The notes under the pieces are model-generated. The model saw only the letters and a program-made list of their open reading frames with translations, ran no database searches and was not told the DNA's origin. A DNA stretch of 64,000 nucleotides, from assembly GCF_014171595.1 (NCBI RefSeq), contig NZ_CP050451.1, positions 1,860,001-1,924,000 of the forward strand, in the 5' to 3' direction. Positions 1,471 to 45,739 of this stretch are shown here, piece after piece. Origin of the DNA: Massilia sp. Se16.2.3. Its GTDB lineage: Bacteria > Pseudomonadota > Gammaproteobacteria > Burkholderiales > Burkholderiaceae_D. How positions within the stretch are numbered: the stretch's first letter is position 1; each line of letters begins with the position of its first letter. The position numbers and the translations under genes were made by a program.

Positions 1471-2658
1471 ATGACATATGCAAAGCGACTTCACGCCATG
1501 GTGCTCGGTCTCGCGGTAGCGACCAGCATCCCGGCGCTGGCAGCCCCGGAGATCACGGGACGGCCGGTAGAACACCAGTTGAACATGCAGCCTCAGGTGA
1601 CTGCGGTCGGCGCAGACATCTATAACCTGCATAACTGGATGATGCTGGTTTGCCTGGTCATCTTCATCGGCGTCTTCGGCGTCATGTTCTATTCGGTGTT
1701 CAAGCACCGCAAATCCCTCGGCCACAAACCGGCCACCTTCCACGAATCGACCGCCGTCGAAATCGCCTGGACCGTCGTTCCTTTCCTGATCGTCATCGGC
1801 ATGGCCCTGCCTGCCACCAAGACCGTCATCGCACTGAAGGACACCTCCAACGCCGATTTGACCATCAAGGCCACCGGCATGCAGTGGAAATGGGGCTACG
1901 ACTACCTCAAGGGCGAAGGAGAAGGCATCAGCTTCCTGTCGAACCTGGCCACCCCGCGTACCCAGATCGGCGCGCCCGGCACCCCCGCCACCGAAGCGCG
2001 CGGCGAAAACTACCTGATCGAAGTCGACAACGAAGTGGTCGTCCCGGTCGGCAAGAAGGTGCGCATGGTGCTCACCGCCAACGACGTCATCCACGCCTGG
2101 ACCATTCCCGCCTTCGGCATGAAGCAGGATGCGATTCCCGGTTTCGTGCGCGATGGCTGGTTCAAGGCCGACAAGATCGGCGTCTACCGCGGCAACTGCG
2201 TCGAGCTGTGCGGCAAGGACCACGCCTTCATGCCGATCGTCGTGCGTGTCGTATCAAGCGAGGACTATACTGCCTGGGTCAACACCAAGAAGAAGGAAAT
2301 GGCTGCGCTGGCGGACGATCCGAACAAGGTCTGGACCATCGACGAACTGAAAACCAGGGGCGAGCAGGTGTACGCCGCCAATTGCGTGGCCTGCCACCAG
2401 GCCAACGGCAAGGGCGTGCCGAATGCCTTCGCGCCGCTGGACGGTTCGGAAGTCGTGAACGGCGAGAAGGGCCACCAGATCGCCGTGCTGCTCAATGGCC
2501 AGGACACCCCGCGCTACGGCACGGCCATGCCGGCCTGGAAGCAACTGTCGGACACCGAGATCGCCGCCGTGATCACCTATACCCGCAACACCTGGTCGAA
2601 CAAGGCCGCGGAAAACATCGTTCAACCGGCCGAGATCATGGCTGCGCGTAGCAAGTAA
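1471..2658 (+). CDS. coxB: Cytochrome c oxidase subunit II with fused cytochrome c domain
   Basis: Subunit II of an aa3-type terminal oxidase. It takes electrons from cytochrome c through the CuA centre. The 395-residue protein has a signal peptide ending near ALA-AP, two membrane helices, and a periplasmic cupredoxin domain whose CuA ligands are visible: H208 and the C243-x-E-x-C247-x3-H251-x2-M254 motif. A C-terminal cytochrome c domain follows, with heme site CVACH at 305-309 and a later AMPAW supplying the axial methionine. This fused form is common in betaproteobacteria. I chose the ATG at 1471 (MTYAKRL) because it begins the signal peptide; an in-frame upstream extension to 1309 looks non-coding. 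It is the first gene of the cox operon. Confidence 0.95.
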
Positions 2659-5341: not shown

Positions 5342-6199
5342 ATGAGTGTGTCAAAAACCGCGCCGCACTATTTCGTGCCCGGCCCTTCCATGTGGCCGAT
5401 GGCCGGCGGCATCTCGATGCTGGTCACCATGGTCGGCGCTTCCGGCTGGGTCAACAGTGCCGCGTGGGGCCCGGCGGTCTGCCTCGCCGGCATCGCTGCC
5501 ATGCTGGTGGTGCTGTATTACTGGTTCGGCGACGCCATCGGCGAGTCGGAATCGGGCCAGTACAGCCACCGCATCGATTCGTCCTACCGCTGGTCGATGA
5601 GCTGGTTCATCTTCTCGGAAGTGATGTTCTTCGCCGCCTTCTTCGGCGCGCTGTTCTATGCCCGCTCGATCACCATGCCCTGGCTGGCCGACCTCGACCA
5701 CAAGGTCCTGTGGCCCGACTTCGCCGCCAACTGGGGCAATACCGGTCCTGCCGGCGTGGTCGAGAGCTTCAATACCATGGGCCCGTTCCCGATCCCGACC
5801 ATCAACACCCTGTTGCTGCTGACCTCGGGCGTGACCCTGACCATCGCCCACCACGCGCTGCGCGCCGGCCACCGCCGCAATACCGCCGTGTTCCTGTTCG
5901 CCACCATCCTGCTCGGCGCCATCTTCATGGGCTTCCAGGCCTACGAATACATGCACGCCTATTCGGAACTGAACCTGAAGCTGACCTCGGGCATCTACGG
6001 CTCGACCTTCTTCATGCTGACCGGCTTCCACGGCTTCCACGTGACCCTGGGCGCGATCATGCTGTCGGTGATCCTGTACCGCGTACTGCGCGGGCATTTC
6101 ACGGCCGATAACCACTTCGGCTTCGAAGGCGCCGCCTGGTACTGGCACTTCGTCGACGTGGTGTGGCTTGGGCTGTACGTGGTGGTGTACTGGTTGTAA
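5342..6199 (+). CDS. coxC: Cytochrome c oxidase subunit III
   Basis: Membrane subunit III of the aa3 oxidase, which stabilises the catalytic core during turnover. Seven membrane segments are apparent in 285 residues, with family motifs HYFVPGPSMWP at the N-terminus, WFIFSEVMFFAAFFGALFY, FHGFHVTLGAIML and WYWHFVDVVWLGLYVVVYW at the C-terminus. Two in-frame ATGs exist at 5336 and 5342. The AGGAG at 5331-5335 abuts the first and lies six bases before the second, so I take 5342 (MSVSKTAPHYF). Confidence 0.95.
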   Translation: MSVSKTAPHYFVPGPSMWPMAGGISMLVTMVGASGWVNSAAWGPAVCLAGIAAMLVVLYYWFGDAIGESESGQYSHRIDSSYRWSMSWFIFSEVMFFAAFFGALFYARSITMPWLADLDHKVLWPDFAANWGNTGPAGVVESFNTMGPFPIPTINTLLLLTSGVTLTIAHHALRAGHRRNTAVFLFATILLGAIFMGFQAYEYMHAYSELNLKLTSGIYGSTFFMLTGFHGFHVTLGAIMLSVILYRVLRGHFTADNHFGFEGAAWYWHFVDVVWLGLYVVVYWL

Positions 6200-6221
6200 G
6201 CTGCCGCAAGCTCGCTTGGCG

Positions 6222-6247
6222 AAGGGACAGCCAGCCGGCTGTCCCTT
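6222..6247. terminator. Hairpin between convergent coxC and DUF2909 genes
   Basis: Perfect 11-bp stem AAGGGACAGCC / GGCTGTCCCTT with a four-base loop, placed between two convergent genes. There is no long T run, so its strength as an intrinsic terminator is uncertain, but its symmetry would serve both strands. Confidence 0.55.
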
Positions 6248-6263
6248 GTCATATCTGCCCCGC

Positions 6264-6464
6264 TCAGCGGATGCCGGTCGGCTGGATCCAGCCCATCTTG
6301 TACGAGAAGAGCAGGATCAGGAACAGGGTGATCGACAGGCCGACGCGTATCGCCAGCGCCTGCACGGTGCGGTTGCTGCGCCCCTTGTCGCGCATCAGGA
6401 AGAACAGGGCCGAGGCCAGGCTGGCGATGATCAGGATAAAGGCGATGGCAACGAAGATTTTCAT
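6264..6464 (-). CDS. Twin transmembrane protein, DUF2909 family
   Basis: A 66-residue protein with two membrane helices: IFVAIAFILIIASLASALFFL, then IRVGLSITLFLILLFSYKMGW. A short basic loop (RDKGRSNRT) joins them. This matches the DUF2909 family, which lies convergent to coxC in related bacteria. Its function is unknown; the conserved position beside oxidase genes suggests a membrane role linked to respiration. Confidence 0.75.
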   Translation of the reverse strand: MKIFVAIAFILIIASLASALFFLMRDKGRSNRTVQALAIRVGLSITLFLILLFSYKMGWIQPTGIR

Positions 6465-6502
6465 GGACGGCCTGGCGGGATCGAGAGAAGGGTTTCATTG
6501 TA

Positions 6503-7270
6503 ATGCGTTTGGCTTTCCGTTTTAGGCTCATCCCTTTCGTGGTGACGGTGTTATTGGTGGTGCTCGGTATTGCGCTGGGCAACTGGCAAACCCGGCGTGC
6601 GGAGGAGAAGCTGGCCATTGCGGCGCGGGTTGCCGAGCGGTCCGCGGCGGCGCCGGTCGTCCTCGACGCCGCGGCGGTTCAAGCGGCGGACCGCGTGGAG
6701 TCGGGACTCCACCCTACGAACGTCAGGCAGCTCGAATATCGACGGGCGCGGGTACAAGGCGAATTCGTCGCCGCCTGGCCCGTCTTCCTGGAGAACCGCC
6801 CCTACAATGGCCGCGCCGGTTTTTACCTGGCGATGCCATTTAGAATAGCGGGTTCGGATACCCATGTGCTGGTGCTGCGCGGCTGGCTGCCGCGCGACCC
6901 TGCCGACATCGCGCGCCTGCCTTCCTTTGCCACGCCTTCCGGCACGGTGGAGATCGAAGGCGTGGTCGTCGGCAGTGCCGGCCACGTCATGCAGCTTGGT
7001 ACGCCGGGCAAGCTGGCGCCGGGGGCACGCGTGCAGAACCTGGCCGTCGACGAGGTGGCGCGTGCCAGCGGCCTGGCGCTGCTGCCCTTCTTCGTGCAGC
7101 AGACCGGACCTGACCAGCCGGGCGAGACGCTGGTGCGCGACTGGCCGCTGCCCGCCAGCGGCGTCGACAAGCACCGCGGCTATGCCTTCCAGTGGTACGC
7201 GCTGGCGGCCATGGCAGCCTTATTTTTTGTGATCACGGGATTTCGTAGTGGAAGAACACATGTCGCTTGA
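6503..7270 (+). CDS. SURF1 family cytochrome oxidase assembly protein
   Basis: Membrane assembly factor for heme a insertion into subunit I. The 255-residue protein has the usual SURF1 plan of two terminal membrane helices around a periplasmic domain. The first is LIPFVVTVLLVVLGIALGNWQ with the conserved G-x-WQ ending, and the last is HRGYAFQWYALAAMAALFFV, containing the family's Y-x-x-QW motif. The central segment includes VFLENRPYNGRAGFYLAMPF and VLVLRGWLPRD. It opens the second half of the oxidase locus and overlaps the next gene. Confidence 0.9.
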   Translation: MRLAFRFRLIPFVVTVLLVVLGIALGNWQTRRAEEKLAIAARVAERSAAAPVVLDAAAVQAADRVESGLHPTNVRQLEYRRARVQGEFVAAWPVFLENRPYNGRAGFYLAMPFRIAGSDTHVLVLRGWLPRDPADIARLPSFATPSGTVEIEGVVVGSAGHVMQLGTPGKLAPGARVQNLAVDEVARASGLALLPFFVQQTGPDQPGETLVRDWPLPASGVDKHRGYAFQWYALAAMAALFFVITGFRSGRTHVA

Positions 7271-7880
7271 AAAGCAGAGCGGGGCAGGGCAGATGGGCGC
7301 CCAGGCAAAGCGAACGGGACGCTGGAAATTGTTCGCCGTGCTGCTGGTATGCGCGTCGCCCATCATCGCGTCCTACTTCGCCTATTACGTCATCAAGCCG
7401 AGCGGCCGTACCAACTACGGCACCCTGATCGACCAGCGCAGCCACCCGATGCCGAAGCTGCCCAGCACCACCCTCGACGGCCGGCCCAAGACGCTCGAGC
7501 ACTATGCCGGCAAGTGGCTGATGGTGAAGGTGGGCGGCGCCGCCTGCGACCAGGAGTGCGAGGCCCAGCTGTTCGCGATGCGCCAGCTGCGGACCATGCA
7601 GGGCAAGAACATGGAGCGGGTCGAGCGCGTCTGGCTGATCACCGACGACGCGCAGCTCGACAACACGCTGATCCGCAAATATGACGGCATGCACCTGCTG
7701 CGCGTCCCCCGCGCGGCCCTGGGCAACTGGCTGCCGGTGGAGGCGGGCGGCAAGCTGGAAGACCACATTTTCCTGGTCGACCCGCGCAGCAACCTCATGA
7801 TGCGCTTCCCGAAACACCCCGAGCCGCGGCGCGTCCACAAGGACCTGGCGAAGCTGCTGCGGGCCTCGGCGATCGGCTAG
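7260..7880 (+). CDS. SCO-like membrane-anchored thioredoxin-fold protein
   Basis: A 206-residue protein with one N-terminal membrane helix (LFAVLLVCASPIIASYFAYYV) and a periplasmic domain resembling the SCO/thioredoxin fold. It keeps the SCO copper signature: a C-x3-C pair in AACDQECEAQ and a later histidine in LEDHIFLVDP, which aligns with the VDHTAGSYVFD region of the true sco gene at 9924. Overall it is diverged from that gene. Genes in this position between SURF1 and ctaA are usually called hypothetical. A copper or thiol-redox role in oxidase assembly is my inference. ATG 7260 is preceded by GGAAG; a GTG at 7248 is the alternative start. Confidence 0.7.
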   Translation: MSLEKQSGAGQMGAQAKRTGRWKLFAVLLVCASPIIASYFAYYVIKPSGRTNYGTLIDQRSHPMPKLPSTTLDGRPKTLEHYAGKWLMVKVGGAACDQECEAQLFAMRQLRTMQGKNMERVERVWLITDDAQLDNTLIRKYDGMHLLRVPRAALGNWLPVEAGGKLEDHIFLVDPRSNLMMRFPKHPEPRRVHKDLAKLLRASAIG

Positions 7881-11803: not shown

Positions 11804-13379
11804 TCAGGCCCCTCGTCCCAGCAGGCTGCGCAGCTTGTCGAAATCGATCGGCTTGGTCAGGTGGTGGTCGAAACCCGCCTCGACGGCCAGGCGCTTGTCC
11901 GCTTCCCGGCCCCAGCCGGTGGCGGCGATGAGCAGCATGCCGGCGCCGCGCGGCAGGGCGCGCGCCTTGCGCGCCAGTTCGTAGCCGTTCATGTCGGGCA
12001 GACCGATGTCGAACAGGGCCACTTCGGGCGCGAATTCGTCCAGCGCCATCAATGCGTCCTGCGCGCTGTGCACCGCGCGCGCGGTACAGCCATGCAGTTC
12101 CATGAACATGGCCAGCGTCTGGGCGGCGTCGGCATTGTCGTCGACCACCGGGATGCGCCTGGGCGCAAGGGCGCCACTGTCCTCGGCCGGTGCCGCGCAG
12201 TCCTGCGGCGTGCTCACCAGCGGCAGGCGTACCGTGAAGGTGCTGCCGCGGCCTTCGCCGGCGCTGTACGCCTCGACGCTGCCCCCGTGCAGGGCCAGCA
12301 GGCCGCGCACCAGCGCCAGGCCGATGCCCAGGCCGCCCTTGGAGCGGTCGAGCGCGGGTTTCAATTGGGAGAACATGCCGAACACGGCGTCGAGCGCGTG
12401 GCGCGGGATGCCGATGCCGTTGTCGCTCACCTCCACCACTGCCTGCCCGTTTTCGCACCACGCGCGCAGCGTGATGGCACCGCCGTCGGGCGTGTACTTG
12501 GCGGCGTTCGTCAGCAGGTTCACCACGACCTGGGTCAGGCGCGTGACGTCGGCGTCGACGATGACGTCATCGGCGGGCAGGGTGACGCTCAGGCTGTGGT
12601 GCGCCGCCTTCATCATCGGCGCGGCATCCTGGGCGGCACTGCGCAGCACGTCGGCGAGCGCGATCGGCGCGCGCCGCAATTCCGTGCGGTTCTGGGTGAT
12701 GCGCGAGACATCCATCAGGTCGTCGACCAGGTGGGTCAGGTGGTGCAGCTGGCGGTCGAACACGGCCAGCAGCTGCTGCGGCGGCGGGCCGTCGCTGCGG
12801 CCGAGTTTGAGTACCTCGAGCGCGCTGCGCATCGGCGCCATCGGGTTGCGCAGCTCGTGCGACAGCGTGGCGGAATTCGTCCTTGCGGCGGTCGGCGTCG
12901 GACAGTTCGGCATTCAGTGCACGCAGCTGCTGCTCGGCTTCCAGCTGGACCGACAGGGCGCGCTCGGCGCTCTGGCGCGCCGCCAGCAGTTCGCGCTCGT
13001 AGGAGCGGCGGTCCTTGACGACGAACAGCGCCCACTCGTCGACGACGCGCGCGTCGTCTCCGTCGCCACGGCGGCGGCGCTGGATGTTGACCAGCATCGG
13101 CACCCGTACGCCGGCACGGTCGAGCATGTCGATCTGGAGCTCGGCCAGCGAGCCCTGCATCTGCAGGATGGGGGTGCAGTGGGTCTGGTGGAACAGGCGC
13201 GCGCCGATCGGCAGGCGCTCCTGGATGCGCATTTGCCCGACCAGTTCGTCCTGGCTGAAGCCGAGCCAGCCGCAGACGGTGGCGTTCGCGCGCAGTACCA
13301 GGCCGGCCGTATCCGTCAGCAGCAAGCCGCAGGCGGCGTCCTCGTACAGGGCAGCGTCGGCGGGCAGCGTGGCGTCCAT
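11804..13379 (-). pseudogene. PAS hybrid histidine kinase with receiver domain, frameshifted
   Basis: Sensor kinase read as two frames that join at about 12870-12873. The upstream part (from ATG 13379, MDATLPADAAL) holds a PAS domain (LLLTDTAGLVLRANATVCGW, then GFSQDELVG) and a coiled linker ending RRKDEF. The downstream part holds the H-box (LSHELRNPMAPM), N-box (LLTNAAKYTPD), G-boxes (DNGIGIP, GGLGIGLALV) and a C-terminal receiver with phospho-aspartate in LFDIGLPDMNG and LTKP lysine. Two bases are missing between DEF and ATLSHEL; restoring them gives 525 residues. It follows the RsbQ-like gene by two bases, so the hydrolase probably makes the PAS ligand. The break, just before the phospho-histidine, would abolish kinase activity if real. 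Confidence 0.8.
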
Positions 13380-20284: not shown

Positions 20285-22199
20285 TCAGTCGTCGCTTGCC
20301 GGGTCCACCGGGAGGCACACCCATGGCTCATACATCATCACCGCTTCCACCCTGATGCCTGGCTGGAAGCAGATTTCGCCGCGCGTGATCAGGTCCATGG
20401 GCACCGCCGCGGAATACGTGCCCGATTCCGACCGGCTGGCGTAGCGGTGGCGATAGCTGGACGAGTCGGCGCTTTTGCCGGGCCGGTAGCGCACCAGCAC
20501 CGTGGCATCCTCTGGCACGGGCAGGTCGAAACGCAGCGCAATGGCGTACGCGCCGTCCTCGTCCTCGTCCTCCTGTTCGACCAGGCTGCCGCGCGGCCGC
20601 GGCAATTGCGCGATCTGGCGCGCATACTTCGCTTCCAGTCCCTTCAGGTGGCGCGCATAATCGTCCAGCACGAGGTCGAGGTCGAACCCGGCCAGCTGGA
20701 ACGCTGTCTGCCACAGCGCATAGCCGTTCAGGTCGCGCGGAAAATCCGCGCTTGCCAGGGCTTGCAGCAGGGTTTTCGGCGCTGCCGCGCCGTAGCGCTT
20801 GACCAGGCGGTCGACCAGAATCGCACCCAGCGGGTACTTGAGGTTGTCGTCCACCGTCCCGGCGAAGGCTTCCTGGTCGGCCAGCTGGCGCGGCGCGAGC
20901 ATCCGCCGTGCCGAGACGGTGGCCGCCGCCAGCTCCTGCTTCGGGGTCACCCCGGCCTGCCGGTCCAGCGTGTTTTCCACCCATTCGGCCAGGCCTTCAT
21001 TGAGCACCATCATCTTGTCCAGTTCGATCGAACGGGCGCCGCCGGCCAGGCGCGCCGCGAACACGTGGGCCGTCTCGTGCGCCGGGGTGGAGGTCGCGTC
21101 CTTGCCGTTCACGTGCATGCGGATGCGGTCCTGGTAGGCCGTGCCGGCGTGGTTCTCGGTCGTGCCGGACAGGTCGACGTCGATCGGCGCCGCCCCTTCG
21201 ATACCGAGCAGGGGAGGCGACGGCGGCGAAGGTGCGGTCGGCCTCGTCGACCAGGGGACGCACCCGTGCGCTGCTCAGGGCCGGGTAGCTGAAGCTGTAG
21301 TGGCGCGTGCTCGCATGGGCACCGGCGATGGGCACGAATTCGAGGGCATCGGCGCGATCGCTGTCGCCGGCGCTCCCATCCTTGCCCTGCCTGTCGCGCT
21401 TGGCCACCAGCATGAAGCCCGCCAGCATGGCGGCCACCATCAGTGCGATACCGAGCCGCACGAGCCATCGGCGCGCCATGCCGATACGCTGCACCCGTGC
21501 GCGCACCTTGCCCGCGCTGGAGAACAGGACGAAGGAGAACGAGGCGAACAGCAGCGCCGCGCCGAGCTGGGTCCAGATGGTGGCCATGGGGAGCCGCCAG
21601 GTGGTCCCGGTAAAGCGCAGGCCCAGCAGGTCGGCGGTGTTGAGCAGCGCCGCGATCGACGGCGACCATTCCTGCAACAGCTTGATCCCGATCGCGCACA
21701 GCGCCAGTGCCAGCCAGGCCACATGGCGCAGGAAGCCCAGCAGCATGCCCGCCGTCAGCGCGACGGCAGTCGTCAGGCAGCACAGCGCGAACATCGTCAG
21801 CAGCAGCGTGGGCCGCAAGGCATGGTTGAGCGAGTCGTGCGTGGCCGCGTGCAGACAGGCGTGCATCAGCAGTGCGCCGGCAGGGAAGATCAGCAATACC
21901 AGCATCGCGGCGTTCAATTTCGCCATGAAGATGGCCCGGCGCGTCACGGGCAGGCCGTCGAGGAATTGCAGGGTGCCTTCGTCGATCTCCCGGATGAGCA
22001 GGTTGACGCCCAGGGCGAATCCCAGCAGGATCTGCATGGCCCCGAGCTCGTCGGACACCAGTTGCAGCCGGTCCGCGAAGGAATGGGTGCCGAAGGGGAC
22101 GAGGAAAACATCGACGAGATCCATCAGCAGAAGCGCGAGCACGACCCAGACAAAGGGGCGCAGGCTGCGCAGCTCCTTGCGCAACAGGGCGCCGTTCAT
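20285..22199 (-). pseudogene. ABC-2 permease fused to gluzincin-type peptidase domain, frameshifted
   Basis: One gene in two frames. From ATG 22199 it encodes an ABC-2-type permease of about six helices (MNGALLRKELRSLRPFVW at the start). An extra helix near residue 290 (LGIALMVAAMLAGFMLV) precedes a domain with the zinc motif HETAH (TPAHETAHVFAARL) and a downstream glutamate in VLNEGLAEWVENT, as in gluzincin metallopeptidases. Removing one base from the GGGG at 21212-21215 joins the frames into 637 residues, so a homopolymer error is likely. The peptidase domain should face the periplasm. The start overlaps the preceding gene's stop (ATGA), making it the last gene of a four-gene operon. Confidence 0.75.
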
Positions 22200-23301
22200 T
22201 TCACCTCCCAGCGCTGTGCCGCCAGCCTGGCACTGCAGCCGAGCAGCGCGTCGCGCCGCTCCACCGCGGTGAACAGGCGGGTGCCGCGCGCGAACGACGC
22301 CGGCAGCACGCCGGCGCGGGTGCTGTCGACCCGGACAGCGCTTCCGGCGCGATTTCGCCATCCCATGGCCCCGGGGTCCGGTACAGGACCGAGAACGGCG
22401 GCACCTCGCCGGCCGCCGGCCCGGTCCGGTAATGCACCTCGAAGGTGTTCCCCGCCATGCGCTGCGCGCTGAAACGCACCTGCGGTACGGCGATCCGGTC
22501 GAGCGTGCCCGCCATGCGTGCCTGTTCGGCCTTGAACAGTGCGTCGAACTGCCGCGTCAACCTGGCCTGGCCCGGCGCGCCTGCCTGTGCCAGCAGCGCC
22601 GCAAAACCGGGGTCGAGCAGCGAGGCACGGGCGTCGCCCGGCGGGCGCTCGGCCAGCACCGAACGGCTCAGTACCCGGAAGCGCGGCTCGCCCATCTGCT
22701 GGGCCAGCGAAGCGACCATCCTCCACGCCAGCGCATCGGCAAGGCAGGGGCCGAGCTCCTCGCGCACGCTCAGCCACGCGTGTACCGCGCGTTCGGCACC
22801 GCGGCCCCGGGCCTGCAACAGGCGCGCCGCGAAAGCGGCACGCAGCGCCAGCTTGTCCTGCTGTTGCGGCAGGTCGCGCGCCACCAGCCACTGCGCGGTA
22901 CCGTCGAGCAGCCAGCGCCGGCTTTCCTCGGCGGCGCGGCCATGCGAATACCATTCCATCCACGAGGCCAGCGCATAGGCCCGGAATCCTTCGCGGTCGA
23001 AGCTGTCGCTGGTAAAAGCTGCGCGTACCACCACCCCGTCGGCATTGGGCAGCACCGCGCGCTGGAAGGCATCGCCATCGAGGGCATCGTCAGGCAGCGC
23101 CGTCAGTGCGGGAGTGTCGTGCAGGCCCAGGAAAGCCTGCATGCGCGCCAGGTCGATTGAGATCGCATTGGCCAGCTGCTGGGCGACGCCTTCGGGGCCG
23201 GCGTCGCCGACCGCGACGGCCGGGCCGCCCTCGCTGCGCACCGCGTGCGCCAGTTTGTAGGGCGGCTTGGGTTTGCGTGCCTCGATCACCGTGAACGCCA
23301 T
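22196..23301 (-). pseudogene. Degenerate peptidase-like domain protein, frameshifted
   Basis: Not a recognised family by name. Comparison within the operon shows that it resembles the peptidase domain of the next gene: WLLDGTAQWLVARD here corresponds to VLNEGLAEWVENT there. The zinc motif HExxH is missing; the aligned stretch reads REGFRAYALASW. It is therefore probably a catalytically dead paralogue. The frame changes at about 22335 (one base missing). The corrected end, RRDALLGCSARLAAQRWEVK then TGA, overlaps the next ATG perfectly, which supports the correction (368 residues). The frame is also open upstream of ATG 23301 and encodes a helix (SAVTISFPAVIMAFTVI), so this may be the second half of a fusion with the permease at 23304. 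Confidence 0.55.
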
Positions 23302-23303
23302 GA

Positions 23304-24044
23304 TCACTGCGGGGAAGCTGATGGTGACGGCGGATTTTCGCGCGAGCGCATCCGGCGCGACAAGGCCACCACCAGCGAGCCTTCGGCCGACAGCGCCAGC
23401 GCGAAGGTCGCCACGACCAGCGCCGCGGCGATGCCGCAGGTGACCAGCACCTCCGACAGGGGCAGCACCAGCCTTTCGTAAACCATCGATTCCTGCGCCA
23501 GGTAGAAAGGCGCCCAGTTCTGGATAGCCAGTTGCCCGACGGCGTTCGCCGCCATCGTGCAGACAGCCAGCATGCTCCAGATGACGTAACGGTAACGGCC
23601 GGTCAAGCCGATGGCGAAGGCCAGTGCATAGCTGAACAAGGCGAAACTGGCGCTGCGGATGGCCACCATGGCGACGTAGTGCGGCGTCAGCGTGACCTTG
23701 TGGCGCGCCAGGAGCAGGGTTGCGCCCAGGCAGGCGCCCATCGCCAGCAAGAGCAGTGCGCACCCGAGCAGCCATTTCACCGCCAGCACCTGGGTACGGC
23801 TGACGGGCAGGGTTTCCAGGAACAGCTGGGTACGGCCCATGTATTCGCGCACGACCAGGCGGTTGGCCAGCACCAGCGCCATCAGGGGCACCATGATCGC
23901 GACAATTTTCTGATAGGCCACCATCGGGCTGCCCATGATCCCCGCCGCGCGCAAGGCGACAGCCTGCCCGAGCGCCAGCAACAGCAGCATGGCCAGCAGC
24001 ACCCAGCGGTGCTCGCGCCACTCCTTGTAGAGGAGGGCGCGCAT
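23304..24044 (-). CDS. ABC-2 type permease
   Basis: A 246-residue membrane protein with about six helices, starting MRALLYKEWREHRWVLLAM and containing GIMGSPMVAYQKIVAIMVP and the amphipathic segment REYMGRTQLFLETLPVSRTQ typical of ABC-2 permeases. The ATG overlaps the stop of the ATPase gene (ATGA at 24041-24044). The C-terminus (RRMRSRENPPSPSASPQ) looks like out-of-frame sequence. If one base were restored near 23342, it would run on into the downstream peptidase-like domain and give about 616 residues, close to the 637 of the neighbouring permease-peptidase fusion. Probably one half of a heterodimeric transporter membrane domain. Confidence 0.75.
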   Translation of the reverse strand: MRALLYKEWREHRWVLLAMLLLLALGQAVALRAAGIMGSPMVAYQKIVAIMVPLMALVLANRLVVREYMGRTQLFLETLPVSRTQVLAVKWLLGCALLLLAMGACLGATLLLARHKVTLTPHYVAMVAIRSASFALFSYALAFAIGLTGRYRYVIWSMLAVCTMAANAVGQLAIQNWAPFYLAQESMVYERLVLPLSEVLVTCGIAAALVVATFALALSAEGSLVVALSRRMRSRENPPSPSASPQ

Positions 24045-24892
24045 CAGGCGGTCACGCTGTCGGTGCGGGCAAAGGCCAGGAAGATGTCTTCCGGGGACAG
24101 CCGCTCGGCGACGGCGCCTGGCGGCAAGGTGGCCCCGTCCCATAGCGTTGGATCGGCCTGCCAGATATCGCCGCGCAGCCGCGTGAAACCCTCGCCGGGA
24201 ATCGCGTCGTCAAGCGCGACGATGCGCCGCACCTGCGTGCGCAAGGCACCGACTTCGCCCTCGAAACGGCAGCTGCCGGCCTGCACGATGCCGACGCGCT
24301 GTGCGAGCTGCTCCACCTCGCCGACCAGGTGCGAGGAAAACATCACCGTCGTGCCCTGTTCGCGCTGCAAGGCCTGCAATTGATCGTTGAACTCGCGCCG
24401 TGCCACCGGATCGAGCCCGGCCGTCGGTTCGTCCAGCAGCAGCAATTCCGGGCGCGGCGCCAGCGCCAGCGCCAGCCCCAGCTTGGTGCGTGTGCCGCCG
24501 GACATCTCCGACGCGCGCCGGTCGCGTGGCACGTCGAGCATGCGCAGCAGGCGCTGGAATTCGGGCGCGTCCCAGGTCGGATAAAAGCTGCCGACAAAAT
24601 CGCCTAACTGGTCGGCCGTCATCCAGGGATAGAAATTCGGTTCCTGGCAAACGTAGCCGATGCGTTGCTTGAGCCCGGCCGGCATGCGTTTCACAGGGCG
24701 GCCGAGGACGGTGATGCTGCCGCTGTCCGGACGCAGCAAACCCATCAGCAGCTTGAGGGTCGTGGTCTTGCCGGCGCCGTTACGGCCGAGGAATCCGAAC
24801 ATTTCGCCCTGGCGCACGGTCAGGTTCAGGCCATCGAGGGCTTGCACCCGGCCATAACGGTGGGTGACGGATTCGAGCTCGACAGCGTTCAT
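24044..24892 (-). CDS. ABC transporter ATP-binding protein
   Basis: ATPase of the ABC operon, 282 residues. Walker A is GRNGAGKT at 36-43, the signature is MSGGTRTKL (M replaces the usual L), Walker B is LLLLDEPTAGLD, and the switch histidine is in VMFSSHLVGEVEQL. The C-terminal extension of about 60 residues is as in CcmA/YtrB-type ATPases that pair with ABC-2 permeases. It is the first gene of a four-gene minus-strand operon in which each start overlaps or abuts the previous stop. The substrate is unknown; attached peptidase domains suggest peptides or membrane-protein quality control. Confidence 0.88.
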   Translation of the reverse strand: MNAVELESVTHRYGRVQALDGLNLTVRQGEMFGFLGRNGAGKTTTLKLLMGLLRPDSGSITVLGRPVKRMPAGLKQRIGYVCQEPNFYPWMTADQLGDFVGSFYPTWDAPEFQRLLRMLDVPRDRRASEMSGGTRTKLGLALALAPRPELLLLDEPTAGLDPVARREFNDQLQALQREQGTTVMFSSHLVGEVEQLAQRVGIVQAGSCRFEGEVGALRTQVRRIVALDDAIPGEGFTRLRGDIWQADPTLWDGATLPPGAVAERLSPEDIFLAFARTDSVTA

Positions 24893-25144: not shown

Positions 25145-25196
25145 TTGACATGATAGGGAAGCGAGTCTACTGTATTAATTAACTAATACAGTAGAC
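25145..25196 (+). promoter_or_regulatory. Promoter with GntR/YtrA operator
   Basis: TTGACA (25145-25150) and TACTGT (25168-25173) are 17 bases apart. A perfect 13-bp inverted repeat, GTCTACTGTATTA / TAATACAGTAGAC with a six-base spacer (25165-25196), covers the -10 and start region just before the regulator's ATG at 25200. The position implies autorepression. Confidence 0.75.
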
Positions 25197-25199
25197 ACC

Positions 25200-25598
25200 A
25201 TGACCTCCCACACCGCCCAGCTGTTTTCCATCACCACCGGCTCCTCCGAGCCGATCTATCGCCAGCTTGTCGAGCAGGTGCGGCGCATGGTGGCCGCCGG
25301 CCAGATGGCGCCCGGCGATGCCATGCCCTCGGTACGCGAAGTGGCGCAGTCGCTTGCGCTGAACCCGATGACCGTCTCCAAAGCCTACAGCCTGCTCGAA
25401 ATGGAAGGCCTGCTGGCGCGCCGGCGCGGCATGGGCATGGTCGTCGCCGACCGCGTGCAGACAAGGCAAAGCGCCTTTGAACGCGCCGAACTGCTCAGAC
25501 CCACATTAGAACGCGCCGCCATGGAAGCGCGTCAGCTCGAACTCGATCCAGACACCGTCCTCTCCCTCTTCACCCAGATCCTGAAGGAACAAGCATGA
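25200..25598 (+). CDS. GntR family transcriptional regulator, YtrA type
   Basis: A 132-residue regulator with an N-terminal winged helix-turn-helix (PIYRQLVEQVRRMVAAGQM to LLARRRGMGMVVAD). Only a short C-terminal dimerisation tail follows, instead of a ligand domain. This length is typical of the YtrA subfamily, which controls adjacent ABC transporter genes in response to cell-envelope stress or antibiotics. The DNA-recognition segment MPSVREVAQSLALNPMTVSKAY is clear. The stop overlaps the ATPase start (ATGA-type, 25595-25598). The palindrome over its own promoter is the probable operator. Confidence 0.9.
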   Translation: MTSHTAQLFSITTGSSEPIYRQLVEQVRRMVAAGQMAPGDAMPSVREVAQSLALNPMTVSKAYSLLEMEGLLARRRGMGMVVADRVQTRQSAFERAELLRPTLERAAMEARQLELDPDTVLSLFTQILKEQA

Positions 25599-26467
25599 AT
25601 ACACCGATCGTCCAGCTGTCTTCGATCAGCAAGCAATTCGGCACTACCCCCATCCTCGCCAGCCTTGACTGGCAAGTGATGCCGGGCCAGGTCATCGGCC
25701 TGCTGGGGCGTAACGGCGCCGGCAAGTCGACCCTGCTCGAATGCCTGCTCGGCCTGCGCGAAACGGATGGCGGCAGCGTGCGCATCTTCGGCGAGGACGT
25801 GCGCAAGCTGTCCGACGCGAGCCGTGCCCGCATCGGCTACGTGCCGCAAAAGTCCGACCTGTTCGACTGGCTGACGCCGCGCCAGATGCTCGACTATTTC
25901 AAGGCCCTGTACCCGCGCTGGAACGATGCCAAGGTCGATGCGCTGCTGGCCCGCTGGGGCTTCGACCAGCGCATGCAGAACAAGGCGATCAGCAAGCTGT
26001 CGGGCGGCGAGCAGCAGCGCCTGTCGATCATCCGTGCGCTCGGCCCCGACCCGGATTTGCTGGTGCTCGACGAACCGGTATCGGCGCTCGACCCGATCGG
26101 CCGTCGCGACTTCCTGCGCGAACTGATCGACGGCGTGATCGAGCACGGCACCACGGTCGTGTTCTCGACCCACATCCTGTCGGACCTGGAGCGGGTGGCG
26201 CTGGACATCGCCTTCCTGAAGGACGGTACCATCACCCTGCAGGGCCAGCTCGACGAATTGCTGGAGGGCGCACGCCGCGTCACCGGCCCCGGTGCGATCC
26301 TCGACGGCGTGAAACTGGCCGGCGAATTGCGCCGCCAGCGTAGCCGTGACGGCACCGTCAGCGTGGTCACCCATGGCGGCGCCGTGCTCGGTGCGGTGGG
26401 CCAGCAGGCCGGCGTGCGCGTCGAGCCATTGAGCCTGGAAGACCTGTTCATCGAGGTGACGCAATGA
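25595..26467 (+). CDS. ABC transporter ATP-binding protein (YtrB-like)
   Basis: ATPase of 290 residues. Walker A is GRNGAGKS near residue 38, signature KLSGGEQQRLS, Walker B LLVLDEPVSALDP and switch histidine VVFSTHILSDLERV. The segment WLTPRQMLDYFKALYPRWN is typical of the GntR-linked ABC-2 ATPases. It overlaps both the regulator upstream and the permease downstream, so the three genes form a tight operon. Substrate unknown; by analogy with YtrBCDEF it may respond to cell-wall-active compounds. Confidence 0.88.
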   Translation: MNTPIVQLSSISKQFGTTPILASLDWQVMPGQVIGLLGRNGAGKSTLLECLLGLRETDGGSVRIFGEDVRKLSDASRARIGYVPQKSDLFDWLTPRQMLDYFKALYPRWNDAKVDALLARWGFDQRMQNKAISKLSGGEQQRLSIIRALGPDPDLLVLDEPVSALDPIGRRDFLRELIDGVIEHGTTVVFSTHILSDLERVALDIAFLKDGTITLQGQLDELLEGARRVTGPGAILDGVKLAGELRRQRSRDGTVSVVTHGGAVLGAVGQQAGVRVEPLSLEDLFIEVTQ

Positions 26468-27891
26468 TCGCCGCCCTGAGGGATTACGCGATGCTGTGGC
26501 GTGCCGCGCTGGCGATCAGCCACCGGCGCACCAACCTGATGCTGGGCTGCATGGGCCTGGTGCTGGGCGCTACCGTCGCCACCCTGGTCATGCTCAAGAA
26601 CGGGAATCCCGTCACCGCACTCGCCTACGCCCTGCGCGCCGTCTACGTGGTGCTGGCATTCGGCTGGCTGATGTATTTCGTTCCCGGCGCGATGAAGCTC
26701 AACACGCCGGCGAATGCCATCCTGGTGCCGCGCATGCGGCGCCGGCTGCGCGAGCTGACGGTGCTGGTGTGGGTTTCCGCGATCGTACTCAGTACCCTGA
26801 TGACGATTGGCACGCCGATGCGGGTGTCGTATGTCTTCCTCGGCACCGGCTTCTGGCTGGCCGCCATGGCCCTTGGACGCAGCGGCAACTTCTGGGGCAA
26901 GTGCCTGCTGTTCGTGCTGCCGCTGTTCCCCATCCTGCATTCGTCGATACCGCCCGACTGGCGCGCGCTGCTCGTCACCGCACCGGTGCTGGCGGTGGCC
27001 ACGATGCTGATGCTGGCGCTGGCGGCTTACACGCTGGAGACGATGTTCCCCAACGGTGGCGACCGTCATTACAGGCTGCAGGCCGAACAGAAGCTGATGA
27101 CCGACCAGATGAGCATGGACGGCCAGTTCAGGCAGGCACGCACCCCGCGCCTGGGGCTGTGGGCCTACCAGGCGGTACTGCGTCGCGATATCGCAGGCCG
27201 CAGGGACGGGGCACTCCTGATGCACGTGCTCGGCCCGGCTACGCACTGGACCCAGCGCAACCTGTCGCTGCTGGCCCTGGTTCCGGGTGCCGCAATCGCC
27301 ATGTTCCTGCTGCGCTACCAGTCCAGCGCCGCCACGCTCGAGATGATCGCCGAGGGCAGCTGGGTAGCCGCCTCATCGGCTCTGTTGGTCCAGCTGTTCG
27401 ACTACGAGGGCCGCTCGATGCGTCTGGTGCACACCCGCGGCGAGCAGTCGCTGGTACGGCTGGCGCCCGGCATTCCGGGCAGCGCTGCCGCGTTCAACCG
27501 CAAGCTGGGCTGGCGCCTGCTGCGCGCTGCCTTGCTCGAGTGGGCCTGCATCACCGCGGTCGCGGTGGCAGTCGTCGCCATCACTGGCGGATCGAACGAG
27601 ACCTTGTGGCGGGAACTGTTCATCTGCTGCCTGGCCCTGCCGCTGATTGCATCGAACCTGCGCGACCACGCCCGCCGCAGCGGCTCGGCCGGGTGGTGGA
27701 TCGCGTTGGGGCTGGCCGCTTCGCTGGGCCTGTCGTTCGCTGTCGCAGTCCCGCTCGGGCGCATGCTGGATACGCCGGTCCTGCCGGTGGCAGCACTGGT
27801 GTCAATCGCGCTGGGAGCGCTGGCGGTAACGCTGCGCTGGCGCCGCGTGGCGGGCGCTCCCCACGCCTTCCCGGTGGGGCGCCTGGCCTGA
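26464..27891 (+). CDS. Membrane protein, probable ABC permease partner
   Basis: A 475-residue polytopic protein with about ten to twelve hydrophobic segments, such as LMLGCMGLVLGATVATLVML and LRAVYVVLAFGWLMYFVPGAM near the N-terminus and WWIALGLAASLGLSFAVAVPL near the C-terminus. The ATGA overlap with the upstream ATPase gene indicates that it is the membrane component of that transporter. I do not recognise a named family. It converges on the gamma-glutamyltranspeptidase gene with 25 bases between them. Confidence 0.75.
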   Translation: MIAALRDYAMLWRAALAISHRRTNLMLGCMGLVLGATVATLVMLKNGNPVTALAYALRAVYVVLAFGWLMYFVPGAMKLNTPANAILVPRMRRRLRELTVLVWVSAIVLSTLMTIGTPMRVSYVFLGTGFWLAAMALGRSGNFWGKCLLFVLPLFPILHSSIPPDWRALLVTAPVLAVATMLMLALAAYTLETMFPNGGDRHYRLQAEQKLMTDQMSMDGQFRQARTPRLGLWAYQAVLRRDIAGRRDGALLMHVLGPATHWTQRNLSLLALVPGAAIAMFLLRYQSSAATLEMIAEGSWVAASSALLVQLFDYEGRSMRLVHTRGEQSLVRLAPGIPGSAAAFNRKLGWRLLRAALLEWACITAVAVAVVAITGGSNETLWRELFICCLALPLIASNLRDHARRSGSAGWWIALGLAASLGLSFAVAVPLGRMLDTPVLPVAALVSIALGALAVTLRWRRVAGAPHAFPVGRLA

Positions 27892-27916: not shown

Positions 27917-29675
27917 TCAATGGCCGCGCTTCTGCACCAGCGCCGTGCCTACCCCGTGACGGCGGCCTTCGCTGACCGCCGTCACGGTGCCATCCGGATT
28001 GAACACGATGGCGTTCGCCGCGCCGATTTCCTCGGCCGGCTCTTCCCACTTGTGGCCGAAGGCTTCCAGCGCCTTCGCCTGCGCCGTGCCGGCGAAGCCC
28101 GGTTCGACCGAGGTGACGGCGCTATTTCTCTGCGAGAGGCGCGGGGCGTTCAGCGCCGCGTCCATCGGCATGCCGAGGTCGAGGTAATTGACGATGGTCT
28201 GGAGGACGGTGGTGATGATGGTCGACCCACCCGGACTGCCGATGGTGAAGGCGGGCTTGCCGTCTTTCAGGGCGATGGTCGGCGCCATGCTCGAGCGCGG
28301 ACGCTTGCCCGCTTCCGGCACGTTCGGGTGCGGGCCTGAAAAATCGAAGTCGGTCAGCTCGTTATTGAGCAGGAAACCGTAGCCCGGCACGACGATGCCG
28401 CTGCCGCCCCAGGACTCGATGGTAAAGGTGTACGACACCACGTTGCCTTCCTTGTCCGACACTGTGAAGTGGGTCGTGTGCGCACTCTCGCGCTGCAGCG
28501 GGCGCGTTTGCGGACGCAGCGGCACGCTCGGATCCTGTTGGTAGCCGTACGGGTCGCCCGCCGCCACCACGCCGGCCGCGCGCTGCATGTCGATCAGCTT
28601 GCGGCGCTGGGCGGCGAAGTCTTTCGTCAGCAGCCCAGGCACCGGCGCATCGACGAACTCGGGGTCGGCCAGGTAGGCATTGCGGTCGGCGAAGGCAAGC
28701 CGGCTCGCTTCCAGGTACAGGTGTTCGGCCTGGGCGCGCGGCATCGCTTTCAGGTCGTAGCCTTCGAGGATGTTCAGTGCTTCGGCCACGGCCACGCCGC
28801 CGCTGCTCGGCAGGGGCATGCCGTAGATATCGTAGCCGCGGTAAGTGCTCTTGACCGGCTGGCGGATGCGGGCTTCGTAGTTGGCCAGGTCCGCCAGCGT
28901 CATGCCGCCGCTGCGCACGCGCAGGCCCGCTGCGACGGGTGGCTTGTTGACGGTGTCGACGATGGCGCGCGCCAGCGGGCCTTCATAGAAGGCTTTCTGG
29001 CCGTGGGCGGCGATCTCGCGGTAGGCCCTGGCCATGCCGGGGTTGCGCAGCAGCGTGCCGGGCTTGACCGCCTTGCCGTCAGGGCCGAGGTAGAGCGCGG
29101 CGCTCGTCGTGAACTGGGCGAATTTTTTCTCGTTCAGCGCCGTCATGCTGGAAAAATGGTCGGTAACGACGAAACCCTTCGATGCCACGTCGATGGCCGG
29201 CGCCAGCACCTGCTTGAAATCCATGCTGCCATAGCGCGACAGCGCCTCGTGCCAGCCGCGCACGGTGCCCGGTACGCCGACCGAGGCGCCGCTGGCGACC
29301 GCTTGTTCGAAGTCGATGGGCGCGCCGTTTTCCGGGGAACACGTTCGGCGTCGTGCTGGCCGGTGCCGTCTCGCGGTGGTCGATCGTCACCACGCGCCTG
29401 TCCTTGGCAAGATAAATCACCATGAAGCCGCCGCCGCCGATACCGCAGCTGTACGGGTCGGTCACGCCCAGCGTCGCGGCCGCGGTCACGGCGGCGTCGA
29501 TGGCATTGCCGCCCTTGTTCAAGATGGCGAGCGCCGACTGCGAGGCTTTTTCGCTGATGGTGGCGACGGCGCCGCCGCTGCCGGTAGCAACCGGGGTCCT
29601 GGCCAGCGCCGGCGGCGCCTGCAGGACAATGGAAAGGGTCAGGGTGCAGGCGAGGGCGGTGGCTGGACGGGTCAT
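27917..29675 (-). pseudogene. ggt: Gamma-glutamyltransferase, frameshifted
   Basis: Periplasmic gamma-glutamyltranspeptidase, which cleaves glutathione and transfers the gamma-glutamyl group. A signal peptide (ALACTLTLSIVLQAPPALA) starts at ATG 29675. The N-terminal domain shows GGNAIDAAVTAAATLGVTDP and GIGGGGFMVIY, and the autoprocessing threonine lies in AHTTHFTVSDKEGN. The small-subunit GSPGGSTIITTVLQTIVNYLD is present. Two frames meet at the GGGG at 29334-29337 (minus-strand CCCC); removing one base reads NVFPENGAPIDF and gives 585 residues, the normal size. A homopolymer sequencing error is the simplest explanation; otherwise the gene is broken after about 110 codons. Confidence 0.85.
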
Positions 29676-42150: not shown

Positions 42151-42162
42151 GGAGCTTCCAAC

Positions 42163-45100
42163 ATGTGGAAAGAATTCTTCCGTTTCGACCTGCGCTACCA
42201 GTTGCGCCAACCGATGCTGTGGCTGGTCATGGTGGTCCTCGCGGCCATGGCCTTCGCCAGCGCCGGCAGCACGTCCTTCCGCATCGGCGCCGGCCCCGCC
42301 GGCATCGGCAACGTGCACCTGAACGCGCCGGGCGTGATCGCCAACCAGCTTGGCGTGCTGTCCATGATCGCGATGCTGCTGGTGACCGTCTTCATCGCCG
42401 GCGCCGTGCTGCGCGACAGCGAAAGCGGCATGGCCGACCTGCTGTATGCCGCGCCTTTGAGGAAACGCGATTACCTGTTCGGGCGCTTCCTGGCCGGCTT
42501 CACGGTCTGTCTGCTGATCTTTGCCGCGATCACGGCGGCGATGATGGCTGGCTCGCTGCTGCCGTCGATCGACCCTGCGCGCCTGGGCGCGTTCTCGCTC
42601 TGGCCCTATGCCTGGAGCTTCGTCGTGCTGGTCGTGCCGAACCTGCTGTTCGTGGCGGCGCTGCTGATGCTGCTGGCGACCGTGACCCGTTCGATGATGA
42701 TGGTGTACGTGGGCGTGCTCGCCTTCATGGTGCTGTGGTCGGTCGCGGCGGTGCTTGACGCGGGGAATGGCAGCGCGTCGCTTTCCCTGCTGCTCGATCC
42801 CTTCGGCGTGCGCGTGCTGGCACACCTGACCCGTTACTTTACAAGTGCCCAGTTGAATGCCGAGTTGCCGCCGCTGTCGGGCCTCCTGCTGGCCAACCGT
42901 GTGCTGTGGACCGTCATCGCCCTGGCCATGGCAGGCGCCACCGTCGCGCTGTTCAAGCCGCAGCATGCCGGCAGCGGCCGCCGCTTCGGCAAGGCGCGCA
43001 GCCAGCCGGCGGTAGGGGGCTGCGCCGGCGTCGTTCGCCAGGGTCGCTCCGGTGCGCCGCATTGCGCCGCGCTTCGACGGCTGGACCGCCCCGGGCCAGG
43101 CCTGGCATCTGCTGCGTTTCGACCTGCGCGCCACGATGCGCAGCCTGCCCTTCCTGGTCATGCTGCTGCTGGCGCTGGCCAACTTCATCGCCAACTACAC
43201 CATTGGCGGTGCGCGCTTCGACAGCGTGCCGTATCCGCTGACGCGCCTGATGCTGGACGAGCTGGCCGGCGGCATCAACGCGATGCTGGTGCTGGTGCTG
43301 CTGTTCTACAGCGGCGAGCTGGTGCACCGCGACCGCCAGCTGCGCATCGCCGACGTCAGCGACGCCACGCCGGTGCCGGGCTGGATGCCGCTGCTGGCCA
43401 AGACCGGCGCACTCGCTGCCGTGGTGCTGGCCTTCCTGGGCGCCGGCGTGCTGACCGCGGTCGCGATCCAGCTGTTCAAGGGCGGTGCGCCGGTCGAGGC
43501 AGGGCTGTACGTGCAGGGCACGCTCCTCAACGCTGCGTACTTCATCATCGCCGGCATGGCCCTGCTGGCGCTGCAGACGCTGGCCAATAACAAGTATGCG
43601 GGCTACCTGCTGGGCGCCGCGCTGGTCGCATCCGGCAGCGTGCTGGGCCTGGAACACAAGCTGGTGAGCTTCGCCGCCATGCCGCAGCTCGTGTATTCGG
43701 ACCTGAACGGCTATGGCCACGCTTTGGCCGGCTGGTGCTGGTTTGCGCTCTACTGGAGCCTGGTCGGCGCGGCGTTGCTGTTCCTGGCGCAGGCTTTCCG
43801 CGTGCGTGGTCCGGCCCCAGGCTGGCGCGCGCACCTCAAGAGCGGCCTGCGCGGCTTGCGCGGCGGCGCAGGCCTCGGCCTGGCGCTGAGCGTGGCCGCC
43901 AGCGTGGCGGTGGGTGGCTGGATCTACACCAACACGAACGTGATCAACCGCTATGAGTCGAGCGCGGCCCTGCTCGACAGGGCGGCCGACTACGAGAAGC
44001 GCTACCGCGGTTTCCTCGACCTGCCCAATCCCAGCCTGACGGCGGTGCGCGCCGATGTGGCGATCTACCCGGCCGAGCGCCGCGTCACCATCCGTGGCAG
44101 TTACCAGCTCCGCAACAAGACCGGTGCGCCGCTGGACACCCTGCGTATCCAGTTGGACCCGGCCGCCATCACCCGCCTGACCCTGGTGCCTGCGCACACG
44201 GTAACGCTGGACGATGCGCGCCATGGCATGCGCGTGCTGAAACTGCGCGAACCGATCGCGCCCGGCGCCAGCCTGCCCTTCGGCTTCACCGTCGAGGTGC
44301 AGGGGGAGGGCTTCACCAGCAGCGGGGCGCCAGACAACATCCACCATAACGGCACCATGTTCACGTCCGAGAACTTCTTCCCGAAATTCGGCTACGTGCA
44401 GGCAAACGAGATCGACGACCGCGCCGAGCGCCGCCAGCGCGGGCTGGGCGAGCCGCACCGCATGCCGCTGCTCGACGACCCGGCCGCACGCAAGGCCAAC
44501 TTCTGGAAGCTGTTCGGCTTCGACGCCGACCTGGTCGACTTCGAGACCACGGTCTCGACCAGCGCCGACCAGGAAGCGATTGCACCCGGCACGCTCGTGC
44601 GCAGCTGGGAAGAGGGCGGCCGCCGCTACTTCCACTACCGGATGGACGGGCCGATCCTGCCTTTCTTCGTCTACCAGTCGGGCCGCTGGAACGTGAAACG
44701 CGCCGACTGGCACGGGGTGCCGATCAGCGTCCGTTACGATGCCAGGCACCCGTACAACGTTGACAGCATGGTAAAGGGCACCCGGCGCGCGCTCGACTAT
44801 TACAGCGCCAGCTTCGGCCCGTACCCGCACAAGGACGTGCGCATCACCGAGTTCCCGCTCTACCAGCAGTATGCGCGCAGCTTCCCCGGCGTGATCCCGT
44901 TCTCGGAGTCGCTCGGCTTCATCAACGACCTGCGCGATCCCGATGGCGTCGACCACGTCTTCTACGTGACGGCGCACGAAGTGGCGCACCAGTGGTGGGG
45001 CGACCAGGTCATCGCCGCCAACGCCCAGGGCAGCATGATGGTGACGGAATCGGTGGCCGAGTATGCGGCGCTGATGGCGCTCGAGAAGGAGTTCGGGGCC

Positions 45101-45739
45101 GCGAAGACCCGCCGCATCCTGCGTTTCGACCTCGACCAATACCTGGCGGGACGCGGCAAGGAACTGGTGGTCGAGCAGCCGCTCGTCAAGGTGGAGAGCC
45201 AGCTGTACATCGGCTACCGCAAGGGCAGCATGGTGTTCTACCGCCTGCGCGAGGAAATCGGCGAGGCAGCCCTGAACCGCGCGCTGAAGAATTTCGTGAG
45301 CGCGCACCGCTACCAGACCGCTTCCTACGTCACCAGCCGCGACCTGCTGGCCGCAATCCGCGCCGAGACCCCGGCGGATAAGCAGGACCTGCTGACCGAC
45401 CTGTTCGAACGCATCGTCGTCTACGACAACCGCGTGAAGGCGGCGGCCGCGGTGCAGCGCCCGGACGGGCAGTGGGACGTGACGATGCAGCTGCAGCTGG
45501 CCAAGCTGGAGGCGGACGGCAAGGGCAAGGAAAGCCTGCGCACCTACGACGAGCCGGTGGAAATCGCCGTGTTCGCCGGTGACCGTGAGCTGATGCGCGG
45601 GAAGCGCATGATGCCCAGCGGTGACTCGAGCGTGACCGTCACGGTCAGGGAGAAGCCGTCGGAGGTGGGTGTCGATCCCTACAACATCCTGATCGACCCG
45701 GTGCCAGGCGATAACCGCAAGGCGGTGAGCCTGAACTGA
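42163..45739 (+). pseudogene. ABC permease/M1 aminopeptidase fusion, frameshifted
   Basis: A very large fused protein, 1191 residues once the frame is repaired. Two ABC-2-like permease blocks (MWKEFFRFDLRYQLRQPMLW and WHLLRFDLRATMRSLPFLVM openings) are followed, after a last helix at GLGLALSVAASVAVGGWIY, by an M1-type metallopeptidase domain with zinc motif HEVAHQWWG and downstream glutamate in ESVAEYAALMALEKEFG. The frame changes at the GGGGG of 43015-43019; removing one G reads QPAVGAAPASFARVAPVRRI. Such ABC permease/M1 aminopeptidase proteins are a known but functionally uncharacterised type. The peptidase is expected on the outer face. It converges on a LytTR regulator gene. Confidence 0.85.

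Follow-up and report, generated by a model that had tools for sequence, protein, structure and literature searches.

An ABC-2 transporter operon pairing putatively active and inactive gluzincin-fold half-transporters in Massilia sp. Se16.2.3 and bacteria of four phyla

We describe an operon of Massilia sp. Se16.2.3 and its relatives in which a single ATPase gene accompanies two paralogous half-transporters, each of which joins a NosY-like ABC-2 permease, by way of one additional helix, to a gluzincin-fold domain that ends in a beta-sandwich. One half-transporter (here termed live) carries an HExxH motif and its partner (inactive) lacks it, and this split between the two sets of homologues is beyond chance. 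We consider it probable that the two halves form an obligate heterodimeric ABC-2 transporter in which a zinc peptidase (the live half) works alongside an ancient pseudopeptidase, the two together extruding and cutting peptides. We infer that the complex is 1:1 and faces the periplasm, that zinc is bound and peptides are cut, and that the inactive half docks the substrate, itself taken to be a peptide.

Organization of the operon and its frame breaks

The window, which is the whole 64 kb stretch of DNA that was analyzed, holds the operon on its minus strand between positions 24892 and 20285. Its sequence and open reading frame (ORF) listing show an ATPase followed by two permease-domain pairs: the first permease is followed by a peptidase-like domain that lacks HExxH, the second by a HETAH domain (Table 1). 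The same order had been reported in a first-pass annotation of the sequence, which counted four genes; the operon instead comprises three, with three internal frame changes. The stop codon of the ATPase gene overlaps the start codon of the first permease gene (TGATG), and in the ATGA at 22199-22196 the TGA of the inactive protein runs into the start codon of the live gene. The ABC-2 permease assignments of both permease pieces in the window passed their Pfam cut-offs narrowly, and a Pfam search with the larger inactive ectodomain piece returned zero matches up to E 1. The live ectodomain is 73% identical, over residues 4-312 of the query, to the nearest named unbroken copy, a 630 aa protein of Massilia brevitalea (G019).

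Table 1. Features of the operon in the window.
Feature	Position	Strand	Basis
ABC ATPase, 282 aa, single intact frame	24044..24892	-	PF00005, E 7e-31
Inactive half-transporter, permease half	23332..24044	-	PF13346, 25.4 bits against a cut-off of 25; frame segment 23332-24046
Inactive half-transporter, last helix and gluzincin-fold ectodomain without HExxH, in another frame	22332..23331	-	Frame segment; intact relatives
WLLDGTAQWLVARD, inactive counterpart of the live third-ligand motif	22873..22914	-	Sequence; profile alignment
Inactive protein tail, frame changed again	22196..22331	-	Frame segment; matching tail in frame with the ectodomain in relative L002
Live half-transporter, permease half (ATG at 22199)	21213..22199	-	PF12730, 27.5 bits against a cut-off of 27; frame segment
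Live half-transporter, HETAH gluzincin-fold ectodomain, in a frame other than that of the permease	20285..21212	-	Frame segment; match to the G019 copy
HETAH zinc-binding motif (predicted)	21065..21079	-	Sequence; H, E and H invariant in 56 aligned relatives
VLNEGLAEWVENT, including the third zinc-ligand glutamate (predicted)	20969..21007	-	Sequence; E399 invariant in 56; spacer of 22 in 120/120 listed

According to codon-usage modelling of the window, the frame changes lie near 23332, 22332 and 21213, the inactive gene being broken twice and the live gene once, between its permease and its HETAH domain. The live fusion had been described as a single frame of 637 residues, a description that does not hold in the window, where the change near 21213 sets its two parts in different frames. 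The one break suggested for the inactive gene (near 23342) corresponds to the change near 23332, but the protein breaks again near 22332. Programmed frameshifting was considered for the two permease-ectodomain joins, both of which change frame in the window, and is disfavored because relatives have both joins in frame and a third frame change lies close to the inactive gene's tail.

Genuine decay would make this copy a pseudo-operon. The three internal changes fall in two genes of an assembly in which rpoB, rpoC, dnaE, gyrA and carB each occupy a single unbroken frame, and the operon can evidently be lost, since G041 retains no more than a live-type fragment of 169 aa. We nonetheless regard decay in Massilia sp. 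Se16.2.3 as unlikely. The same codon-usage model detects four more within-gene frame changes in these 64 kb (near 12870, 29336, 43031 and 57112), one of which hits a gamma-glutamyltranspeptidase whose main-frame Pfam match starts at profile position 70, and the pN/pS values of the focal pieces against the Massilia brevitalea locus (0.33-0.44) resemble those between intact relatives. Both observations suggest, short of proof, that indel errors in the assembly are a likelier source of the breaks than real decay. The asymmetry between active and inactive domains rests on relatives and is independent of the window genome.

Conservation and co-evolution of the active/inactive pair

Among the 62 genomes of the genus, the live domain was matched in 12, counting that of the window, and most of the relatives that carry a name belong to Massilia. 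Scanning a single genome for each species identified 26 loci, distributed over Massilia and other Burkholderiales, Steroidobacter and other Gammaproteobacteria, Myxococcota, Sulfidibacter (Acidobacteriota) and Verrucomicrobiota. Both fusions are present in 25 of these loci, with the inactive gene upstream of the live one, and the 26th (L048) holds a live-type domain alone, without a permease match. The genus survey contributed one further operon (L051) from outside the scan, bringing to 26 of 26 the operons other than the window's, from four phyla, in which the inactive gene precedes the live gene. We identified an ATPase ORF in all of the 25 two-fusion loci except L033 and L036 (23/25). In ten Massilia/Burkholderiales loci the inactive permease and ectodomain occupy one frame of 602-616 aa, bearing out the fusion of about 616 residues that the first-pass annotation had envisaged. 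Protein searches returned 186 homologues of the live fusion (120 listed, most of 620-660 aa) and 140 of the inactive fusion (120 listed, most of 600-625 aa).

The HExxH motif is present in 25/25 live and 0/25 inactive chains of the two-fusion loci (26/26 and 0/26 with L051), and in 120/120 live and 0/120 inactive homologues among the matches listed, a set that overlaps with the operon set. Searching with a profile built from 13 distant inactive chains brought up seven proteins, among them the first query; all seven lack HExxH. A second domain regularly bearing HExxH had been set beforehand as one refuting observation; the motif occurs in 0/127 of the inactive homologues listed, and the live/dead asymmetry recurs together with the gene order in four phyla.

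The two families also differ in what they conserve. All 120 listed live homologues present the pattern HExxH-x22-E, and an alignment of 56 sequences shows no variation at H372, E373, H376, E399 and Y453. In 55 sequences of the inactive family, no ectodomain histidine is conserved at 90%, and V339, E374, G382, E429, G432, C434, C604 and R607 are invariant; by order of secondary structure, six of these eight positions (residues 339-441) may be read as matching the active-site region of the live model. The place of the third zinc ligand in the inactive WLLxG motif is taken by D in 100 of the 127 listed homologues, by E in six, by G in six and by L in one, and the motif is absent in 14. The coupling-helix regions are likewise distinct, with Q-L-F-L-E invariant in the 55 inactive sequences and F-L-D conserved at 90% or more in the 56 live ones.

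Peptidase family M1 is recognized by the pattern HExxH-x18-E and a GxMEN motif. Membership of the live chain in this family was considered and dropped, given its spacer of 22 in 120/120 listed homologues, the presence of GxMEN in 0/120 listed and the lack of a significant match to the Pfam family PF01433, for which no match was listed for P0001 up to E 1 and only weak matches appeared in 2/56 members (best E 0.019). The C39 cysteine peptidase family, the mark of peptidase-containing ABC transporters (PCATs), is absent among the Pfam families shown for the 56-member live alignment (25 of 33 families) and the 55-member inactive alignment (19 families). The HExxH, downstream glutamate and peptidase fold of the live chain place it among the putative gluzincins (clan MA), with zinc binding and activity predicted.

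Several lines of evidence indicate that the two halves have evolved together. In a tree of 50 permease halves, live and inactive sequences part at one branch (SH-aLRT 100), with a single label change that none of 500 shuffles equaled, and the same groups (L028 with L031, four Myxococcaceae and three Verrucomicrobiota) cluster on both sides. Distance matrices of live and inactive ectodomains correlate over the 25 loci (r 0.963; 0 of 2000 permutations as high). The two genes overlap by ATGA or GTGA in 24/25 loci, and the inactive partner is present in 25/25 loci holding a permease-bearing live chain. This strict one-to-one co-occurrence, the gene overlap, the co-varying distances and mirrored trees, and the invariant predicted zinc site of the live half all weigh against the half-transporters acting unpaired, be it as separate homodimers sharing the ATPase or with ectodomains that serve as scaffolds for an outer-membrane or periplasmic partner, cleavage being incidental. 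ABC-2 permeases such as NosY do act as homodimers, but we find this alternative highly improbable for the operon described here.

Across six pairs of relatives, pN/pS spans 0.31-0.62 in the inactive ectodomain and 0.43-0.63 in the live one, and the inactive identity is the higher in each pair; over all 25 loci, mean identity is 30% for the inactive ectodomain versus 35% for the live one. To judge by these sequences, the inactive ectodomain is a maintained pseudoenzyme rather than a decaying domain. Tentatively, the division of roles may be older than the operon's dispersal among four phyla.

Predicted folds and relation to known systems

AlphaFold2 models of the two chains (moderate pTM: 0.62, 0.57) match the same solved gluzincins, namely APN, IRAP, ERAP2 and a collagenase, and share the order of their secondary structure, an M1-like fold being predicted for both ectodomains. 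With Foldseek, the inactive model has a single match below E 0.001, to ERAP1, and that match is loose (TMq 0.22). Comparison of ectodomain-only profiles derived from 120-sequence alignments detected no similarity between live and inactive domains (probability 0.1 percent), after which deeper full-length profiles and structure were used. The full-length profiles match each other at E 2.8e-19, a value partly carried by the permease, and their alignment places WLLDGFAQW on VLNEGLAAW, in agreement with the correspondence between WLLDGTAQWLVARD and VLNEGLAEWVENT previously drawn by eye. Unrelated folds, the other observation set beforehand as refuting, are not what the models show, although the ectodomain-only profiles detected no relationship. 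A sequence-profile search of the PDB with the live alignment gave no hit up to E 1, and with the inactive one gave NosY alone (E 0.0046).

NosY is also the best fold match of both models, covering about residues 1-230. Hydropathy analysis yields seven segments for the live chain, if the long stretch at 126-178 counts as two, and six for the inactive chain, whose model shows one further helix at 149-169. One additional helix (from 234 or 235) lies past the NosY-matching region and precedes the ectodomain. The N-terminus of NosY is inside. If the same holds here, the one extra helix beyond the NosY-like part would place the ectodomains outside, in the periplasm.

Fusions of ABC-2 permeases and M1 aminopeptidases are a kind known from genome annotation, and the window contains one of its own 17 kb away (42160-45736), with PF12679 followed by PF01433 (E 7.2e-14), HEVAH and a downstream TES; the frame change near 43031 falls within it. 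Like the focal chains, this fusion has a permease followed by a C-terminal gluzincin-type peptidase and stands beside an ATPase-bearing operon. It differs in holding two permease stretches and one M1 domain apparently in one long chain, whereas the focal system consists of two separate half-transporters with shorter ectodomains, a spacer of 22 and no GxMEN, one of them without HExxH. A blastp comparison with the focal chains gave a single match below E 0.01, covering 56 aa of the permease (E 8e-4). The ABC-2/M1 fusion is the closest known kind, of which the focal system is a variant with split halves and a strict active/inactive pair.

Other systems share parts of this design. NosY lacks a peptidase ectodomain and comes as the product of a single gene, whereas the focal system, compared with NosDFY, has two different permeases, each with a peptidase-fold ectodomain. 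Active/inactive peptidase pairs and pseudopeptidases are exemplified by the M16 pairs and by TAF2 of TFIID, none of which is known to be part of an ABC transporter. The peptidase domains of PCATs are cysteine peptidases, N-terminal and cytosolic; those of the focal system have a metallopeptidase fold, are C-terminal and probably lie outside, and occur in active and inactive versions within one operon. PCATs are alike in that the exporter incorporates a peptidase module; degenerate C39 domains have been described as kept in such exporters and needed there for substrate interaction (PMC10986499), the precedent to which we liken a substrate-holding role of the inactive ectodomain. Searches of an open-licence literature library, at the level of titles and the starts of abstracts, gave no description of this operon.

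Proposed mechanism and significance

The operon's single ATPase gene and two distinct permeases suggest a dimer of the ATPase beneath a heterodimer of half-transporters. Two copies of the ATPase would drive the two NosY-like half-permeases, each of which would run through its additional helix into a gluzincin-fold domain on the outer face, capped by a beta-sandwich. The live half would be a zinc peptidase, with its HExxH-x22-E and invariant tyrosine. The partner, which retains the predicted fold and conserved residues of its own but lacks the HExxH site, would be an ancient pseudopeptidase. ATP binding and hydrolysis would push peptides out, or raise them from the membrane, to the outer face, where the inactive domain would dock, hold or orient the peptide and the live domain would cut it. 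Against this reading stand the negative ectodomain-only profile comparison, the loose ERAP1 match, the moderate pTM values, the lower mean conservation of the inactive ectodomain over 25 loci and the broken state of the window's own copies. It is possible, and we propose it with some reserve, that these operons form a distinct class of peptidase-containing ABC transporter that works at the outer face, in which an asymmetric gluzincin pair, with a pseudopeptidase that has a groove of its own, cuts peptides as they emerge.

By-eye inspection of the ORF listing of 16 loci revealed neither a neighbor gene recurring across clades nor a substrate gene near the operon, the latter a further point against the proposed mechanism, and the substrate may therefore be encoded elsewhere or be external. 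For the same reason, a defensive role of the same heterodimer, which would pull membrane-active peptides out of the inner membrane and destroy them on the outer face, conferring antimicrobial-peptide resistance, stays a serious rival to export and maturation. The resemblances of its ATPase and NosY-like fold are common to many exporters, and we deem the defensive role rather doubtful. We also dropped the idea that the operon is connected with the GntR/ABC genes at 25193-27889 of the window, as no such neighbor was seen in the same 16-locus inspection. Separately, a gene resembling NAD-dependent dehydrogenases recurs beside the operon in four loci of one Massilia group (L029, L032, L037 and L039) and is taken for shared synteny.

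If the heterodimeric peptidase transporter is real, a single complex would couple the ATP-driven movement of peptides to their cleavage outside the membrane, and its conserved pseudoenzyme would probably serve to hold the substrate. The strict rule of one active and one inactive half leads to a clear prediction for mutants of either, and provides a testable hypothesis for proteins now labelled 'hypothetical protein', 'ABC transporter permease' or copper-enzyme maturation permease.

Neighbouring genes and a second permease-peptidase

The group lying divergently from the focal operon encodes an ABC ATPase that is 35% identical to the ATPase of the operon, together with the regulator and membrane protein listed in the table; no such group was seen adjoining the operon in the loci of 16 relatives. 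Elsewhere in the window, a second permease-peptidase comprises an ABC-2 permease stretch, then a further permease and a Peptidase_M1 domain.

Features of the window and of relatives' loci
Feature	Location	Strand	Remarks
GntR-family (YtrA-like) regulator, ABC ATPase, long membrane protein	window 25193-27889	+	by eye
Second permease-peptidase	window 42160-45736	+	Peptidase_M1 (PF01433), motif HEVAH...TES
Frame change	near 12870		histidine-kinase-like gene, by eye
Frame change	near 29336		gamma-glutamyltranspeptidase, Pfam
Frame change	near 43031		ABC/M1 fusion (second permease-peptidase)
Frame change	near 57112		secreted protein, PEP-CTERM-like tail, by eye
Live-type domain fragment, 169 aa	L057 (genus relative G041), 1904-2410	-	
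Live-type domain (HETAH), 574-aa frame	L048 (relative's locus), 5920-7641	+	

Frame changes outside the operon

Besides those in the focal operon, the 64-kb window contains four within-gene frame changes (see table), which suggest indel errors in this stretch.

Matches in the same genome and in relatives

Outside the window, a 147-aa frame approximately 4 kb from rpoC in the same genome also matches a short part of the rpoC model (model positions 928-1055), at G000:C1:507776-508168; this is the model's second match there.

Neither an ATPase nor an inactive partner was present in the 8 kb that hold the L057 live-type fragment, which is possibly a remnant. The L048 frame, which showed no match to the permease part, is possibly a free-standing relative of the ectodomain.
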